Source of the DNA: Motiliproteus sp.
Lineage (GTDB): Bacteria; Pseudomonadota; Gammaproteobacteria; Pseudomonadales; Balneatricaceae
Length of the DNA stretch: 64,000 bases
Direction of reading: 5' to 3'
Assembly (NCBI GenBank): GCA_026196225.1
Contig: JAPHRD010000020.1
Span: 1-64,000 of the forward strand
The notes under the pieces were generated by a model. That model had not been told where the DNA came from and made no database searches. It worked only from the letters and a program-made list of their open reading frames with translations. Shown here one piece after another: positions 28,925-37,575 of the stretch. Both the position numbers and the translations under genes were made by a program. Numbering within the stretch: position 1 is the stretch's first letter; each line of letters starts with the position of its first letter.

Positions 28925-29113
28925 TTTCCCTCCCTAACTGATCTATTCTTTTGAAAGCATTAACAAGCGTTTTTAAACAGCTGTTTTAGCTCCTTTTTTA
29001 TTGACTTAGCGCAACATCCCGCTGTCAATACACTGCGCCAGATCAACGCTAAACTTGAAGGTGATCGGTTAAGGTAATTATCGGGTAATAGTACTTTGCG
29101 GAAGCTAAAAACG

Positions 29114-29701
29114 ATGAAGTCTGCACAGGGGTTTACATTGATAGAGCTGATGGTAACGGTGGTCATCGTTGCCATACTTGGTGGTATCATCGCCCCCAAT
29201 TTTTCTACATTTATCAAAGACAACCGACTGAGCGGTCAGATCAATACATTGATTGGCGCTATCCATTATGCCCGAGGGGAAGCAGCCAGCAGACGCACCA
29301 TCGTAACCATTTGTGCCAGCAGCAACGGCTCTAGCTGCAATGATTCCAACAACTGGGAAACGGGTTGGATCATTTTCAGCGACGGTAATAATTCAGGCAA
29401 TGCCGTCATTGATGGCAGCGACGAACTGATTCTCTATCAAGAAGCGCTTGAAGGTGGCAATACCCTACGGGAATCAGGATTCAGTTTCGGCACCGGAAAA
29501 CTTCATTTCAACGCCAACGGTTTTCTTTATGCGTCGGATCCAAGTTCAGGGACCATGACTCTTTGCGATGATCGAGGAGCCTCTGAGGCGAAGGCCATTG
29601 TCGTTAATATCTCAGGAACCTCACGCTTAGCAACTGACGATAATAATGACGGAATCTTTAATGATCACGACGGCAGTGCGAGCAACATATCATGTCCATA
29701 G
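29114..29701 (+). CDS. Type IV minor pilin, GspH/FimT/FimU family
   Basis: Prepilin motif G|FTLIELMVTVVIVAIL; first gene of minor pilin cluster; ATG 29114 preferred to TTG 29096. Confidence 0.88.
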   Translation: MKSAQGFTLIELMVTVVIVAILGGIIAPNFSTFIKDNRLSGQINTLIGAIHYARGEAASRRTIVTICASSNGSSCNDSNNWETGWIIFSDGNNSGNAVIDGSDELILYQEALEGGNTLRESGFSFGTGKLHFNANGFLYASDPSSGTMTLCDDRGASEAKAIVVNISGTSRLATDDNNDGIFNDHDGSASNISCP

Positions 29702-30264
29702 CTCACCATTTAAAGCCACTTGGAGGCACGTCGACGAAAAAAGACCAGTATGGTGTAGGCATGCTGGAAGTGCTGATTGCCATTGTTTTGCTGACCAGCA
29801 CTCTGCTGGGAGCCACGGCACTACAAATTACCGGATTACAGACTAATCGGAGTGCCTACTACCGATCTCAGGCAAGCCAGTTAGCTTACGATTATGCCGA
29901 TCGGATTCGTATAAACGCCAGCTATGCCCTCAACAACAGCTCCAATTACGAACTCAACACCTCCTCAATGGCGATGCCATCGTCGACCAGTTGCTCTACA
30001 AACAGCAATGGCTGTTCAGAGGCAAATTTACGGGTTCACGATATCCGCCAGTGGAGTGAAAATTTTATCGATGTAACCGGTGTTGGTAACGATAACAGTG
30101 CCTACCAGGCTCTACTTCCGGGAGGCGTCGGGGAAGTAACAGCCAGCGGCGCCACATTCACCATTACTGTTAGCTGGGACGAAGTCGACTGGAGCGTCAC
30201 CAGCAGTAGCAACAAAGCCTCGAGAACCAAACAATTTTCTTTAGACTTCACATTAGCAAATTAA
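29692..30264 (+). CDS. pilV: Type IV minor pilin PilV
   Basis: G|VGMLEVLIAIVLLTSTLLGATALQ prepilin-like N-terminus; order in cluster. Confidence 0.88.
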   Translation: MSIAHHLKPLGGTSTKKDQYGVGMLEVLIAIVLLTSTLLGATALQITGLQTNRSAYYRSQASQLAYDYADRIRINASYALNNSSNYELNTSSMAMPSSTSCSTNSNGCSEANLRVHDIRQWSENFIDVTGVGNDNSAYQALLPGGVGEVTASGATFTITVSWDEVDWSVTSSSNKASRTKQFSLDFTLAN

Positions 30265-30268
30265 AATT

Positions 30269-31396
30269 ATGAATAGCGCAAATCATTTAAGTCCCAAAAG
30301 ACAACGCGGCCTTTCATTGGTTGAGCTGATGATTGCGCTGGTTGTCAGTAGCATGCTGATGTTGGGCGTTTTCCAGATATTTCTGGGCAGTAGCAATACT
30401 GATAGAGTTGCCCGTTCCTACGCCCGGATCCAGGAGAATGGCCGCCTGGCTATGGATATTCTCACCCGCAATATCCGCATGGCCGGTTATCAAGGTTGCA
30501 TTGATCCCGCACTCATCGATATGAATATTATCGCTGATGATCCTCCCACTATAGATCTTAGTAACGACGGAATCATGGGCTATGAGAGTGACAGTACGGC
30601 CTGGAACGTAGCTAATCGTAATGATGACTTGGACTCTATCAGCGGCATCCCAAATGGTAGCGATATCGTTTACGTTCAATATGTATCACCCTCAGGAGTC
30701 AACGTAGTATGTAACGGCAACGGTATCACCTCCTGTGAGGCGGTAAATGCCAATATAAAAATCGACGACAACAGCGTCGGATTGAATAAATACGACGTAG
30801 CTATTGTCTCCGATTGCGAAAATGCGGACATGTTCAGAATCGTTAATATGGTCAACGATGAACACGGCGACAACCACACTACCCTTGCTCACTCCAACTC
30901 CCACAACTCTTCGAATAATCTGAGCAAACCCTATGACGAAGATGCTCAGGTTATGACCTTCGAAGCGCTTGCTTATTACGTCAAAGATACGGGACGAAAC
31001 AACTCCCACGGCGAAGATATCTACTCACTATATCACTTCGACTCCACCTACCACGCTGCCAACGACGCCACCATTACCGGCCGTGAACAAGAGTTGGTGG
31101 AAGGTATTGAACAGTTGCAAATTCTCTACGGAGAGCGCTTAGCTAGCGGCAATATGCGCTTTGTACCGGCAGATACCTCTAGCCTAGATTTTGGTGATGT
31201 CGAAGCGGTTCGCTTGTCGATACTGGTCAGTGCAACAGAGCCCGTTCTTCAAGACGATGATAGTGAAACCTATCTATTACCGGGTGCCGATGTAGAACCA
31301 CTGGGGGCTTCGTCTCCGGAAACAGTCCATCCGGCCGACAAGCGATTGAGGCAGGTCTTTACCACAACAATCTACCTTAGAAATTTGGGTACCTGA
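30269..31396 (+). CDS. pilW: Type IV minor pilin PilW
   Basis: QRG|LSLVELMIALVVSSMLMLGVFQIFLGS; IRMAGYQGC. Confidence 0.92.
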   Translation: MNSANHLSPKRQRGLSLVELMIALVVSSMLMLGVFQIFLGSSNTDRVARSYARIQENGRLAMDILTRNIRMAGYQGCIDPALIDMNIIADDPPTIDLSNDGIMGYESDSTAWNVANRNDDLDSISGIPNGSDIVYVQYVSPSGVNVVCNGNGITSCEAVNANIKIDDNSVGLNKYDVAIVSDCENADMFRIVNMVNDEHGDNHTTLAHSNSHNSSNNLSKPYDEDAQVMTFEALAYYVKDTGRNNSHGEDIYSLYHFDSTYHAANDATITGREQELVEGIEQLQILYGERLASGNMRFVPADTSSLDFGDVEAVRLSILVSATEPVLQDDDSETYLLPGADVEPLGASSPETVHPADKRLRQVFTTTIYLRNLGT

Positions 31397-31398
31397 CG

Positions 31399-31875
31399 AT
31401 GACGCCTATGAATCCAATCAAACAGTCAGACTTACCCAACAAGCAACGTGGGGTAGTTTTGATCGCCTGCCTATTGGTGATAGTAGTCGTCACGATGATT
31501 GCCGCAACCGCTAGCAAAACCTCATCTTTTGAGGAGAAGATGGCTGCCAATGCACAGACCTACAACCGTACCTTTCAGGCAGCCGAAAGCGCTGTTGAAT
31601 ATGGCTTTGATGTAGAAGCTCTAATGTTTGAGGCTACAGACGCCTCCGACGGCTATTCGTCCGTGGACAATGTGACCGTTGGGACTTCTGGCGTTACGGC
31701 AACCGCACAGACCCGATTCTTGGGGGAAGGCATCGCCCCCGGCAATTCACTAGGTACCGCTTCAACCTACCGTTATGAAGTACATGGAACCGGTGAAATG
31801 ACCGACCTGAATTCAAGCACTCTGATTCGTCAGGGGTTTTATCGCGTAAGTTTTGTTACCTCAACAGACCAATAG
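31399..31875 (+). CDS. pilX: Type IV minor pilin PilX
   Basis: QRG|VVLIACLLVIVVVTMIAATASKTSSFEEKMA; between pilW and pilY1. Confidence 0.9.
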   Translation: MTPMNPIKQSDLPNKQRGVVLIACLLVIVVVTMIAATASKTSSFEEKMAANAQTYNRTFQAAESAVEYGFDVEALMFEATDASDGYSSVDNVTVGTSGVTATAQTRFLGEGIAPGNSLGTASTYRYEVHGTGEMTDLNSSTLIRQGFYRVSFVTSTDQ

Positions 31876-31903: not shown

Positions 31904-34900
31904 ATGAACACTATCAGTCGCCAAATTCGAACAAAAGCCTTGGGCTTTTTGACGACCTTTATGATCTGTACACCGGTATGGGCAGATGACACCGAAATTT
32001 ATTTCGGCGGTAGTACCAACGTTACAGTCCAGCCAAATGTTCTCTTTGTGCTCGATACTTCTGGTTCGATGACCAGCACAGATGGGGGTAGCACTACTCG
32101 ATTGGACCGAATGAAAACAGCATTGACCAGCATTCTCAACACCTCAGAAGATATCAATGTTGGTTTAATGCGATTTACCAACCCTGGTGGCCCGATCCTC
32201 TACCCAGTAACCGATATTGATCAAACCATTACCACCACAGTAGTACAGGATGCCATTGATGGAACCACCTCCTCTTCCATCAACGATGGCGACGATGACG
32301 CTGAGCAGGGGGGGGATACTTCTGTAACCTTAGGCTCATCTGCACTCGATATGACAACCGTTGCAAGCTCTGTCAGCGGCTCCGTTTCCGTACGGATAAA
32401 TAGTGGCAGTGATGATTCGGAAGAGCGAAGTAATGGCAGCATCTACTTAAACAGTTCTGACCTGGAACTGATGCAAGGTGATGGCTACGTTCAAACCATC
32501 GGCCTTCGTTTTAGCAGTGTTAATGTTCCTCAGAATGCAGTGATTACCAACGCTTGGATTGAGTTCGAAGTGGATGAGCAAAATGGGGCTTCTGCTAACG
32601 ATGTTACGGTCCTGATTTCAGGGCAAGATGCTGACAATCCTCCAACCTTTAGTACGGCTACCAACGATATCAGTGGCCGTACAAAAACCAGTGCCAATAC
32701 CACATGGGCAATCACTAGCAACCCGTCTGTCGACTCAACTTTTAGCTCCCCCACAATTAACGCAGTAGTGCAGGAGATCGTTGATAGAAGTGACTGGGCC
32801 GCAAACGACCCTATGGTTTTAATACTCGATCATGTCACTGGCAGCGGTATCCGCTGGATGGAAGCCTACGAAGGCGAGTCTGCCTCCGCAGCCCAACTCC
32901 ATATCAACTATGTTACAGGCACTCCGACAACCATCACCGTTCAAGTTAGTGATAGTTTTGACGATGCAGAGGAAGACGTTTCCAGCGGCAGTATATCTCG
33001 AACCAGTAGTGACCTCGAACTCATGAGCGATGGCGGCGATACACAAATCGTTGGCTTACGATTTTCCAGTTTGGCAATTCCCGATGGCGCCACCATCGCT
33101 GATGCACGACTGGAATTTGAAATTGATGAAGAGAATAGCGCTTCATCAGATCCTGTAACGATCCGAATTTATGGCGAAGATACCGATTCTGCGGCGAGTT
33201 ACGGCAATAGCAAATGGGATATCTCTAGCCGCACCAAAACCAGTAACAGTGCCACCTGGGCCATCACTGAGAATCCAGCGGTAAATAATGCCCTGATCTC
33301 TCCCAACGTCAGTACTGTCCTACAGGAAATAGTCGACCGTAGTGGCTGGTCAGAGAACGATCCTGTCGCCTTTGTTATCGAACATATCAGCGGCACTGGA
33401 ATCAGGTGGGTTGAATCGGAAAACGGCGAAGCTAGTGCAGCGGCCCAATTGCATGTTACCTACATGACATCCAGCACAACCCCTAGCAACCAAACCATTG
33501 GTCTTAGATTCAACAATATCAACATTCCCCAGGGTTCTACGATCAGTTCTGCGGTCGCTTCCTTCACCGCTGACGCCGATAGTAGCGATACCACTAGCTT
33601 AACTATTTACGGCCACGATACGGACCAGAGTAGCCAGTTTTCCACTACGGCAGACAACCTCGGTAGTATTAGTCGGCCACGGACTACAGCCAGCGTATCT
33701 TGGAGCAGTTCAGGGGGCCTCACCGCCTGGGTAGACGGAAGTACTTATGATAGTCCTGACTTAACCTCTATCATCCAGGAAATTGTGAACCGCAGTGGTT
33801 GGTGCGGCGGTAACAGTCTGTCACTGATCCTTACAGGCAGTGCCGGTCTTCGTATCGCTAAATCCTATGAGAACGACCCCAGCCAAGCCCCACAATTGGA
33901 CATAACATACGACCCAGCCAGCAATCCTTCAGGCTGTATGAATCACGAGTTTGGTGTCCGGGTTTCTAGCAGCAGTGACGACGCAGAAGAATCCAGCAGT
34001 GGTACGATGGATTTGGACAGTTCCGACCTTGAACTGGTTACCGAGTCCTCTACTCAGAAAATTGGTATTCGCTTTAACAATGTTCAACTCAATCAGGGTG
34101 CAACAATATCCAGCGCATTCCTCGAGTTTGCTGTAGATGAAACCGACCCAACCACAGCAACTTCGCTAACCATCAAGGGCGAGGATGTCGGAAACTCAAC
34201 GACTTTCACCACATCCGCTTCCAATATCAGTGGACGAACTACGACCACCGCAAGCGAAACTTGGTCTATCAGCGATCAGTGGACCGTTGAACATGACCTG
34301 CAGCGCAGTCCTGATATATCCAGCGTAGTGAACGAAATTTTGGCCCGAAGTGATTGGGCTGCCGGCAATAGCATGACCTTCATCATAACGGGTAGTGGCA
34401 AAAGGGTTGTCGAGTCTTACGACGGAAGTAACCTCGCACCTCGCCTAGTTTACTACGCCAACCCAACAACGGTACCCACGAGCAGTAATACCGTTCGAAG
34501 TAAACTAATCGAAATCGTAAATAATTTGGATCACAAGAGTGGTACGCCAATCGTCGACAGTCTCTATGAGGCCGCCCGTTATTATCGCGGTGAACAGATC
34601 GATTACGGTAAAACCCGCGGCTCAGGTAGTGATTCTGCCAAAGCTGCCACTCGAGTGTCTCATTCAGATTCTTATACCGGCGGCGCTCTAGTGCAACCCA
34701 GTGGTTGCTCCGACGATAATCTGGGAAGCAGCGCCTGCGCAGATGAAGAAATTACCGGCTCCCCCACCTATATCAGTCCAATTTCTGAATCTTGCCAGTC
34801 AAACCATATTGTGTTGCTGACTGATGGATACGCCAGCGTGAATACCTCAGCAGACAAAGTTAAGACGATGACTGGTGACACAAGTTGCGTAGATACTGAT

Positions 34901-37108
34901 GATTCCGCCTGCGGTCCTGAGATCACCTATTTCCTTAAAAACAGCGATCAGCTGGCTTCAATGTCACAAGATCAAAACATCACTACCCATACCATCGGCT
35001 TCAATTTTTCCGACGACTGGTTAAGAAATCTCGCGACCCAAGGCGGTGGTGGATTCCATGAAGCGGAATCAGCCACTGAGCTGACCAGCGCATTCGATAC
35101 CATCATCAAAACCATTAAGGCGGTAAACACCACCTTTGTTGAACCCAGTGTCACAATTAACCAATTTAACCGCTTTGCACACCGCGATGACGTTTACTTT
35201 GCACTGTTTAAGCCGCAGGAAACCGCGAAATGGTACGGCAATCTTAAGAAGTACCAGCTCAAAGGTAACCCAGCAACCTTATACGACAACCACACTCCTC
35301 AGGAGGTGGCTATCGATTCCTCAACAGGGTTCTTTGCAATCGATTCAAAAAGCTTCTGGTCTAATGACGAAGATGGCAATGTGGTAGAGGACGGAGGCGC
35401 TGCGAGTAAAATCCCGTCCTCCAGAAATCTGTTTACCAATGTGGCTTCCAGCTCTGTTCTCAGCGTCACTGAAAATGCTGTCAGCGAATCCAACGCACTA
35501 ATCACCAAAGATCTGCTGAACATCACTGCAGAATCGGATAGTTACCGAACTGACCTACTCAAATGGACCCGAGGTCTTGATACCAATGATGCGGCAAGAC
35601 TCGAAATGGGCGATCCTTTGCACTCACGCCCAGAGTTAATCACCTACGATGGGAACTCTACCACCATCGAAAGCACGATTTTCTTTGGTACCAACGAAGG
35701 CTACCTCCATGCCGTCGATATCAATACGGGTATTGAGCAGTTTGCCTTTATCCCTCAAGAACTACTCGCCAATCTAAACACCTATTTTGTCAATGCCAGC
35801 GTCTCTTCCAGACCCTATGGACTGGATGGCGGCTTAACACTCTGGACTAAAGATGCCAACAACGATGGTGATCTGAAAGATAGCGGCGAATTTGCCCGCC
35901 TATATGCAGGAATGCGCAGAGGCGGAAGAAACTACTACGCCTTGGACGTAACCGATGTGAATAATCCTGAATTGATGTGGCAGATCAGTGGCGGCAGCGG
36001 TGACTTTGCAGACTTGGGACAAACCTGGTCAGAACCGATCAAGTCCAAGGTTTATATGAAGGAATCTCCCAGCGCAACGGCTGCTACCTACGATGTCCTA
36101 ATCTTTGCAGGTGGTTACGACAGCGACCAGGATAACGTAACCGTGCGTACCACCGATGATATGGGTAATGCCATCTACATGGTTAATGCTGAAACCGGCG
36201 CTCTGTTATGGTCCGCTGGCAATCACAGTGGACATGACTTGGTATTGAGTGACATGGATTACAGCATCCCTTCGGATGTACGTGTCATTGATATGAATCG
36301 AGATGGTATTGTCGATCAAATGTATGTTGGCGATATGGGCGGTCAGATCTGGCGCATTGACATCAACGAAGAGGGTTCAAGGGCAAACCAGTTAGCCACA
36401 GGAGGTGTAATCGCCGACCTGGCCGGATCAACTGCGGCCACTAACCGCAGATTCTTCTACCCACCAGACCTGGCATTAGCTGTTGACGGGAAAGATCGTT
36501 ATCTTTCCGTTGCTGTGGGATCAGGGTATCGGGCTCACCCATTAGATACAGGTGTGGATGATCGCTTTTATATGATCAAACAGGTGGATACCCACGCTCC
36601 TCCAAGCAGCTATAGTGGCTTCGAAGAGACCGACCTCTATGATGCAACCGACAATCTGGTACAGGAAGGCACATCAACGGAACAGGATGCCGCCGAGATA
36701 GCTCTTTCCAATACCGATGCATCCCGCAAACATGGCTGGTACATCCGTATGGAAAATAGCGGTGAAAAAGTTCTGGCGGGAAGCACTACGATTCAGAACC
36801 AGATAGTGTTTACCACCTACGAACCGACCCCTCCTGCATCTGGCTCTTGTAATCCCGCTCAGGGCACCAGCCGTGCTTATCTGGTCAGCCTGTTCGATGC
36901 CACTCCGATGTTAGATATCACGGGTGATACCACCGTCAACAAGAGTGATCGGGTGATACAACTACAAATCGGTAGTATCCCAGCAACCCCAACAGTCATT
37001 GACACCCTCGATAGCAAACCGACAGTATGGGTAGGTCCGGAACGTCTGGACCAAGTAAATACGGATGTTGAATCGGTTCGTACCTACTGGATCGAGGAAA
37101 ATAACTGA
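31904..37108 (+). CDS. pilY1: Type IV pilus tip/adhesin protein PilY1, enlarged by tandem modules within the vWA domain
   Basis: ATG 31904 with AGGAGA upstream (track starts at TTG 31886). vWA MIDAS VLFVLDTSGSM; C-terminal PilY1 beta-propeller (YAGMRRGGRNYYALDV, DMNRDGIVDQMYVGDMGGQIWRID). Confidence 0.93.
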   Translation: MNTISRQIRTKALGFLTTFMICTPVWADDTEIYFGGSTNVTVQPNVLFVLDTSGSMTSTDGGSTTRLDRMKTALTSILNTSEDINVGLMRFTNPGGPILYPVTDIDQTITTTVVQDAIDGTTSSSINDGDDDAEQGGDTSVTLGSSALDMTTVASSVSGSVSVRINSGSDDSEERSNGSIYLNSSDLELMQGDGYVQTIGLRFSSVNVPQNAVITNAWIEFEVDEQNGASANDVTVLISGQDADNPPTFSTATNDISGRTKTSANTTWAITSNPSVDSTFSSPTINAVVQEIVDRSDWAANDPMVLILDHVTGSGIRWMEAYEGESASAAQLHINYVTGTPTTITVQVSDSFDDAEEDVSSGSISRTSSDLELMSDGGDTQIVGLRFSSLAIPDGATIADARLEFEIDEENSASSDPVTIRIYGEDTDSAASYGNSKWDISSRTKTSNSATWAITENPAVNNALISPNVSTVLQEIVDRSGWSENDPVAFVIEHISGTGIRWVESENGEASAAAQLHVTYMTSSTTPSNQTIGLRFNNINIPQGSTISSAVASFTADADSSDTTSLTIYGHDTDQSSQFSTTADNLGSISRPRTTASVSWSSSGGLTAWVDGSTYDSPDLTSIIQEIVNRSGWCGGNSLSLILTGSAGLRIAKSYENDPSQAPQLDITYDPASNPSGCMNHEFGVRVSSSSDDAEESSSGTMDLDSSDLELVTESSTQKIGIRFNNVQLNQGATISSAFLEFAVDETDPTTATSLTIKGEDVGNSTTFTTSASNISGRTTTTASETWSISDQWTVEHDLQRSPDISSVVNEILARSDWAAGNSMTFIITGSGKRVVESYDGSNLAPRLVYYANPTTVPTSSNTVRSKLIEIVNNLDHKSGTPIVDSLYEAARYYRGEQIDYGKTRGSGSDSAKAATRVSHSDSYTGGALVQPSGCSDDNLGSSACADEEITGSPTYISPISESCQSNHIVLLTDGYASVNTSADKVKTMTGDTSCVDTDDSACGPEITYFLKNSDQLASMSQDQNITTHTIGFNFSDDWLRNLATQGGGGFHEAESATELTSAFDTIIKTIKAVNTTFVEPSVTINQFNRFAHRDDVYFALFKPQETAKWYGNLKKYQLKGNPATLYDNHTPQEVAIDSSTGFFAIDSKSFWSNDEDGNVVEDGGAASKIPSSRNLFTNVASSSVLSVTENAVSESNALITKDLLNITAESDSYRTDLLKWTRGLDTNDAARLEMGDPLHSRPELITYDGNSTTIESTIFFGTNEGYLHAVDINTGIEQFAFIPQELLANLNTYFVNASVSSRPYGLDGGLTLWTKDANNDGDLKDSGEFARLYAGMRRGGRNYYALDVTDVNNPELMWQISGGSGDFADLGQTWSEPIKSKVYMKESPSATAATYDVLIFAGGYDSDQDNVTVRTTDDMGNAIYMVNAETGALLWSAGNHSGHDLVLSDMDYSIPSDVRVIDMNRDGIVDQMYVGDMGGQIWRIDINEEGSRANQLATGGVIADLAGSTAATNRRFFYPPDLALAVDGKDRYLSVAVGSGYRAHPLDTGVDDRFYMIKQVDTHAPPSSYSGFEETDLYDATDNLVQEGTSTEQDAAEIALSNTDASRKHGWYIRMENSGEKVLAGSTTIQNQIVFTTYEPTPPASGSCNPAQGTSRAYLVSLFDATPMLDITGDTTVNKSDRVIQLQIGSIPATPTVIDTLDSKPTVWVGPERLDQVNTDVESVRTYWIEENN
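32384..34456 (+). repeat. Four tandem protein-level repeat modules in PilY1 (about 32384-32917, 32936-33466, 33488-33913, 33953-34456)
   Basis: Shared blocks: SDDAEE/SSDLEL, IGLRFxxxxIPxGATIxxAxxEF, VTIxGxDxD, SxRTKTSxxTWxI, VxQEIVxRSxW, IRxxESYEGxxxxAPQLHITY; third copy lacks the leader strand. Confidence 0.85.
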
Positions 37109-37575
37109 TGCAGACCAGACCCCAAAAGAGCCTCGGGGGATTCACCCTAGTAGAAGTTATGGTAGCCGTCGCCATAGCAACCATACTGCTGATGGTGGCT
37201 TATCCCAGCTATCAAAGCCAATTAGTTGATGGTCGACGGACAGATGCTCAAGGAGCCCTACTGGCATTTGCCACCGCCATGGAACGATTCAGGTCTGACA
37301 ATAACACCTACGTCGGCGCTGATGTCCTCGGCTCTTCCAAAGCCCCGCTGACGACAGTTTACCCGTCACAAGCGCCAGTGGATTCCAATACCAAGTACTA
37401 TGATCTAACCATCGAGGCGGTCGCCGCTGGCAGCTATACCTTAAGGGCCACCCCTATCACGGGAACCGCCCAAGATGGTGATGGCTACTTGGAGATCACC
37501 TCTACCGGCATCAAACGCTGGGACCAGGATGACGACGGCAGTATAGGTAGTGGAGAGGCTAGCTGGAATCAATAA
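37108..37575 (+). CDS. pilE: Type IV minor pilin PilE
   Basis: GG|FTLVEVMVAVAIATILLMVAYPSYQSQL; last gene of cluster. Confidence 0.92.
   Translation: MQTRPQKSLGGFTLVEVMVAVAIATILLMVAYPSYQSQLVDGRRTDAQGALLAFATAMERFRSDNNTYVGADVLGSSKAPLTTVYPSQAPVDSNTKYYDLTIEAVAAGSYTLRATPITGTAQDGDGYLEITSTGIKRWDQDDDGSIGSGEASWNQ

Follow-up and report, generated by a model that had tools for sequence, protein, structure and literature searches.

A predicted type IVa pilus tip protein of Motiliproteus with CBM96-like modules, apparently nested, inserted in its vWA domain

The PilY1 protein encoded by the marine bacterium Motiliproteus sp. carries an array of four homologous modules in the middle of its vWA domain. The modules are predicted to fold as β-sandwiches distantly related to the carbohydrate-binding family CBM96, and their order suggests that the array is itself nested, a module having entered another module that already stood in the vWA domain. 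The gene lies in a stretch of 64,000 nucleotides of contig JAPHRD010000020.1 (assembly GCA_026196225.1), analysed here as a whole and called the window. The features of the locus are collected in Table 1.

Table 1 Features of the pilY1 locus, with nucleotide positions in the window and residue numbers in PilY1.
Feature	Position	Strand	Basis
fimU-, pilV-, pilW- and pilX-like minor pilin genes (four ORFs), upstream of pilY1	29096..31875	+	prepilin-type N-termini read from sequence
pilY1, 1734 aa: vWA, inserted module array and PilY1 β-propeller	31904..37108	+	one open frame; PF05567 at residues 1244-1487
vWA N-terminal half, residues 45-112, MIDAS D51-x-S53-x-S55	32036..32239	+	Pfam VWA_2, 46-109
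N0, residues 125-154, detached N-terminal strands, fitting what module X (M3) lacks at its start	32276..32365	+	1.6 bits alone; in 22/22 three/four-module homologues examined
M1, residues 161-340, complete CBM96-like module, apparently nested within X	32384..32923	+	module profiles; AlphaFold2 pLDDT 96.7
M2, residues 344-525, complete module; extra copy beside M1, here and in two related genomes	32933..33478	+	profile; tree
X body (M3), residues 526-674, without module positions 1-31; WCGG cysteine C634	33479..33925	+	profile, tree, cysteine counts
C678, in the linker between X and M4, presumed disulfide partner of C634	33935..33937	+	conservation of the cysteine pair; putative disulfide
M4 (L), residues 683-856, complete last module	33950..34471	+	profile, tree
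vWA C-terminal half: TVR box, MIDAS T881 in SGTPIVDSLYEA, D974 in LLTDG	34490..35119	+	alignment of relatives; empty-site alignment with L048
PilY1 β-propeller core match, residues 1244-1487	35633..36364	+	PF05567 E 2.4e-10; PDB 3hx6 E 2e-11
pilE-like minor pilin gene, downstream of pilY1	37108..37575	+	ORF list

The interrupted vWA domain

The gene belongs to a minor-pilin operon, with four pilin-like ORFs on its 5′ side and one on its 3′ side; the family names given to the upstream ORFs are putative and were assigned from their sequences. The propeller match of the protein to PF05567 scores 40.3 bits against a cut-off of 28.1. Orthologues with 61-66% identity occur in five other Motiliproteus genomes, so the array is no assembly artefact. 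A second, separate minor-pilin operon in the same genome (contig 118, 15500-24500) encodes another PilY1, of 1476 aa, which has a much stronger PF05567 match and no module array.

Pfam recognizes only VWA_2 and the propeller in the window PilY1 and no family between them, while NCBIfam gives weak matches below the cut-off, mostly to vWA-type models. The MIDAS motifs are all present, D51, S53 and S55 in the first half of the domain and T881 and D974 in the second. In an alignment of the second half, the MIDAS threonine and the D and G of LTDG are invariant columns among close relatives. An earlier reading of this DNA, made from the sequence only, had placed the start of the MIDAS near 32036 and the continuation of the domain near 34500; both are confirmed, with NVLFVLDTSGSM at residues 45-56 (from 32036) and KLIEIVNNLDHKSGTPIVDSLYEAARYY beginning at residue 867 (about 34502). 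The insert comprises about 740 residues and separates β3 from the helix that precedes the MIDAS threonine.

The same reading had proposed that the insert splits the vWA domain, which agrees with the Pfam assignment of the halves and with a natural insert-free paralogue. This protein of 1044 aa (L048) comes from a genome that also encodes a three-module PilY1. With the two flanks of the window protein joined together, it gives an end-to-end alignment (27% over 370 aa, E 2e-27), its HPIRNI...TVRQQL...TPI lying opposite YPVTDI...TVRSKL...TPI of the window. Further relatives of about 1050 aa are also devoid of modules. With the joined flanks, the VWA match in Pfam does not extend past the junction. 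On the naturally intact L048, VWA_2 ends at 51/107 and PF00092 reaches 87/174, just under the cut-off; as Pfam fails to span even this intact domain, it cannot decide the matter, and the alignment with L048 was used. We hold it for practically certain that the array is inserted within the vWA domain.

Fold and order of the modules

The four modules are mutually homologous, with pairwise identities of 32-49% and BLASTP E values from 1e-17 to 1e-54, and score 197-293 bits with the module profile; M3 is devoid of the first ~31 module positions. The relatedness described in the sequence-only reading is therefore real, although that reading overlooked the fragment N0. Its tandem layout stands for the number of modules and not for their arrangement, as the third appears to be a founder split by the first two.

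Compared with Pfam, 33 module sequences gave no convincing family match, and the CBM96 model (PF24517) matched neither any of the 33 nor anything in the window's genome. The AlphaFold2 model of a module (M1, from 33 alignment rows) reaches a pLDDT of 96.7 and a pTM of 0.92. Its best solved matches in Foldseek are the chondroitin sulfate-binding CBM 8wab (TM 0.63-0.67, prob 1.0) and the alginate-binding CBM96 7vbo (TM 0.57, E 2.8e-5, prob 1.0). BMP9 prodomains rank next; similarity of 7vbo to BMP9, and to a cellulose-synthase subunit, was reported with the CBM96 structure too (PMC9971899). In addition, hhalign relates the modules to a CBM96 alignment built in this analysis with 95.4% probability (E 1.9e-8, 142 columns), and in one further protein (L127) the CBM96 and module profiles both match one same stretch. 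These models and profiles strongly support a CBM96-like fold, which we consider very probable. Virus-capsid and TNF-like jelly rolls are ruled out, with Foldseek TM values at or below about 0.3, and a profile match to the Pizza repeat protein 6ren is an artefact, no matched stretch passing singly.

The kinship with CBM96 and DNRLRE domains suggested from the sequence is thus to be understood at the superfamily level only: the modules are distantly related to CBM96, and the Pfam model does not place them in that family. They share the β-sandwich of 7vbo and 8wab, but are found in a pilus adhesin, not in an enzyme, and are acidic, where CBM96 has a basic groove. CBM96 binds alginate through Lys and Arg residues in its groove (PMC9971899), whereas the modules are strongly acidic (pI 4.05-4.17); the same ligand in the same groove is therefore unlikely, in a comparison of overall pI.

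In proteins with three or four modules, the array runs from N0 through one or two full modules to X without positions 1-31, and ends with a full module. N0 matches module positions 1-31, exactly the piece absent from X. Barely detectable alone, it occupies the same place in all 22 of the three/four-module homologues examined, each time with an acidic DD[AV]E-type motif. Once N0 is joined to X, the profile match becomes full-length, and its score is higher in every one of the 22 (by 1-27 bits, mean 15.8).

The modules of two-module PilY1s, from Alteromonas and Granulosicoccaceae, suggest which of the copies is the founder. In a tree of module bodies, one cluster (support 85/76) gathers every X (22) and every first module of these proteins (A1, 16), and also takes in three divergent rows of other kinds. 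A grouping of M1 with A1 is rejected (p-AU 3e-5), while that of X with A1 is not (p-AU 0.345). A cysteine pair, formed by the cysteine of W-C-G and one in the linker, is present in 22/22 X and 16/16 A1, hence 38/38, and in 0/62 of M1, M2, L and the second modules A2; in the window, C634 and C678 would form a disulfide. Orthology of X with A1, the first intact module of the two-module proteins, is supported by these sequence comparisons, and X is then most simply the founder, still intact in the two-module relatives. Together with the fit of N0, this suggests that a module was inserted into a module already inserted in the vWA domain, a nested origin that we regard as highly likely. M2 groups with the Motiliproteus copies of M1, consistent with a later duplication of M1.

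In the folded protein, N0 probably completes M3. An AlphaFold2 model of 1053 residues, covering the two insertion levels, gives N0 the same succession of strands as the start of a module, with a pLDDT of about 84-88 except at its end. The pTM of this model is 0.44, and the packing of N0 with X and the closure of the two vWA halves into one fold are tentative. Searched as a whole in Foldseek, the model returned sensible matches for one module only, besides brief stretches of 58-66 columns in the first half of the vWA domain. Being short and weakly matched alone (1.6 bits), N0 might also be a non-functional remnant of a fifth module, with M3 folding unaided and no functional nesting. We find this improbable, given its retention in 22/22 homologues, its predicted strands, the equal number of N-segments and bodies, and the N-segment that A1, the orthologue of X, has at the position of N0; moreover, in CBM96 the removal of the N-terminal residues forming strand β1 impaired binding (PMC9971899). 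Four N-segments and four bodies would balance equally well in a donor-strand chain, where N0 completes M1, N1 completes M2 and N2 completes M3. Such a chain is very hard to credit: M1 alone is predicted to be complete with its own N-segment, the two-module relatives require no exchange, and the orthology of X and A1 accounts for the order without any. Completion of M3 by N0 is the reading that we keep.

Other arrangements occur in uncultured bacteria. Longer PilY1s of Granulosicoccaceae/Granulosicoccus MAGs (L167 and L180, 1887-1900 aa; L215, cut short by the end of its contig) have an array with an additional degenerate module, split by about 50 residues that set positions 10-65 and 66-170 apart; this is possibly a third level of insertion. 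A variant in a Chromatiaceae MAG (L163) consists of N0, two full modules and a truncated one, without the terminal full module.

Distribution of the modules

The modules do not belong to the standard architecture of PilY1, as the sequence-only reading required. In an order-wide sample of 295 genomes, 205 have a PF05567 match and 24 a module, which in 20 of them lies in a protein assigned to the PilY1 type by its architecture. Phylum-wide, 13 of 399 sampled genomes have a module. The module alignment is too divergent to serve as a query, and the 80 loci nearest to the second vWA half were gathered; nearly all of them carry modules, in a set that is biased towards proteins like the window PilY1 because this half served as the query.

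The closest relatives of the window PilY1 are from Motiliproteus species. Four-module forms are found in the window, in M. coralliicola and in a MAG labelled Neptunomonas; three-module forms in other Gammaproteobacteria and in two Magnetococcales MAGs; two-module forms in Alteromonadaceae, Granulosicoccaceae and Muproteobacteria; and one PilY1-type protein (L138) has a single module. The PilY1s of the Magnetococcales MAGs (L146, L147) are very near the gammaproteobacterial ones, through either horizontal transfer or a binning error.

The module is also present outside PilY1 proteins. A gammaproteobacterial genome of 2.3 Mb (L130) has one at the N-terminus of an open-ended 1612-aa protein with PA14, laminin-G-like and DUF6701 domains. 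This protein resembles the MshQ-type proteins of MSHA pili, and the module may be used there in another pilus-linked adhesin. A secreted protein of 2059 aa (L109, 1794-7970, minus strand) alternates five modules with PKD and fibronectin-III-like domains and has no vWA domain; a protein of 506 aa (L124, 1430-2947, minus strand) has one module beside a calcineurin-like phosphoesterase domain. In a contig of a viral collection (L003, IMG/VR 3300022698_000267), a serine-rich frame of 2829 aa contains three partial copies, each matching no more of the module than positions 30 to 141-170; the frame beside it contains a fourth.

A candidate ligand-binding head of the pilus

We now propose a history and a function for the array. 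In this predicted tip protein of type IVa pili, the vWA domain hosts a predicted CBM96-like β-sandwich head between β3 and the helix ahead of the MIDAS threonine. The founder X would have entered this vWA loop, with a second module, M4, standing behind it. M1 would have been inserted later in the loop following the first strands of X, so that X was divided between N0 and the M3 body, and then duplicated to give M2. N0 and M3 would probably fold as one module, from which M1 and M2 project. To our knowledge, it is uncommon for domain insertion to be nested to a depth of two levels and for relatives to represent each step.

Within the genus, identity declines from 73% in the first vWA half through 67% in the propeller, 62% in the second vWA half, 59% in M4 and 52% in X to 48% in M1: divergence rises with nesting depth. 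Either an exposed, changing head or relaxed constraint would explain it.

The head would most likely bind a polysaccharide or another surface ligand at the pilus tip, as the fold relatives suggest, together with the deletion of a finger in the vWA domain of Acinetobacter ComC, which caused the same defects as loss of the vWA domain in tests of adhesion, twitching and competence (PMC10374093). We give binding of a glycan or surface an even chance. The array is anchored at either end in the vWA fold, beside the MIDAS threonine, so a load on the head would be passed on to the metal site, coupling adhesion to force sensing by the vWA domain; this coupling is rather doubtful. The explanation in its entirety, a nested CBM96-like head in the vWA domain that binds a ligand and is coupled to force, we favour by a modest degree. 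The image of a mechanosensor head that grows outward by domain-into-domain insertion, with its inner module duplicated, its outermost part diverging fastest and its force fed to the MIDAS, is put forward tentatively.

The array might instead have no ligand and act passively, as a spacer or shield lengthening the pilus tip, while binding is left to the MIDAS or the propeller. The number of modules, from 0 to 4 among relatives, would suit such a role, as would their acidity where the ligand residues of CBM96 are basic (PMC9971899). We think it unlikely, since many gammaproteobacterial groups have retained two or three modules and the fold relatives among the top PDB matches are polysaccharide binders; the inner modules also diverge fastest, which would suit a contact surface but equally a relaxed constraint. 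By analogy, a binding head could serve social motility or biofilm formation, recognizing the exopolysaccharide of the cell or its neighbour and not foreign surfaces. Myxococcus type IV pili bind exopolysaccharide, and PilY1.1 and PilY1.2 carry DUF4114, found in sugar-binding proteins (PMC13190605, PMC9109919); for the Motiliproteus head, we consider this specialization quite unlikely. A head for polysaccharide or other surface ligands is the function that we prefer.

Insertions in the vWA domain of PilY1/ComC are already known. Like the window PilY1, Acinetobacter ComC has a lineage-specific insertion in the vWA domain of a type IVa pilus tip adhesin, but there it is a β-hairpin finger of about 90 residues, compared with about 740 CBM96-like and apparently nested residues in Motiliproteus (PMC10374093). 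Myxococcus PilY1.1 and PilY1.2 similarly have an added N-terminal domain with a link to sugar binding; the DUF4114 proteins form a class separate from the vWFA ones (PMC13190605). That source, a 2026 survey of studied PilY1 proteins, names no conserved N-terminal domain beyond vWFA and DUF4114 (PMC13190605). In Streptococcus sanguinis, where PilC is part of a glycan-binding complex, adhesive modules have likewise been added to tip components of the pilus (PilC, PilB), but to pilins and not within a vWA domain (PMC9934059, PMC8179133). CBM96-like or nested modules in PilY1 are not described in the available text of PMC10374093 or PMC13190605, and a literature search limited to non-subscription papers found none.

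This analysis describes an unannotated domain, resembling polysaccharide binders, in the PilY1 of several gammaproteobacterial groups. Its natural series of proteins with 0, 1, 2, 3 and 4 modules offers a test of how pilus-tip specificity evolves and of force transfer from head to MIDAS. Altogether, relatives with none to four modules illustrate a way in which a pilus head of this kind could have arisen.
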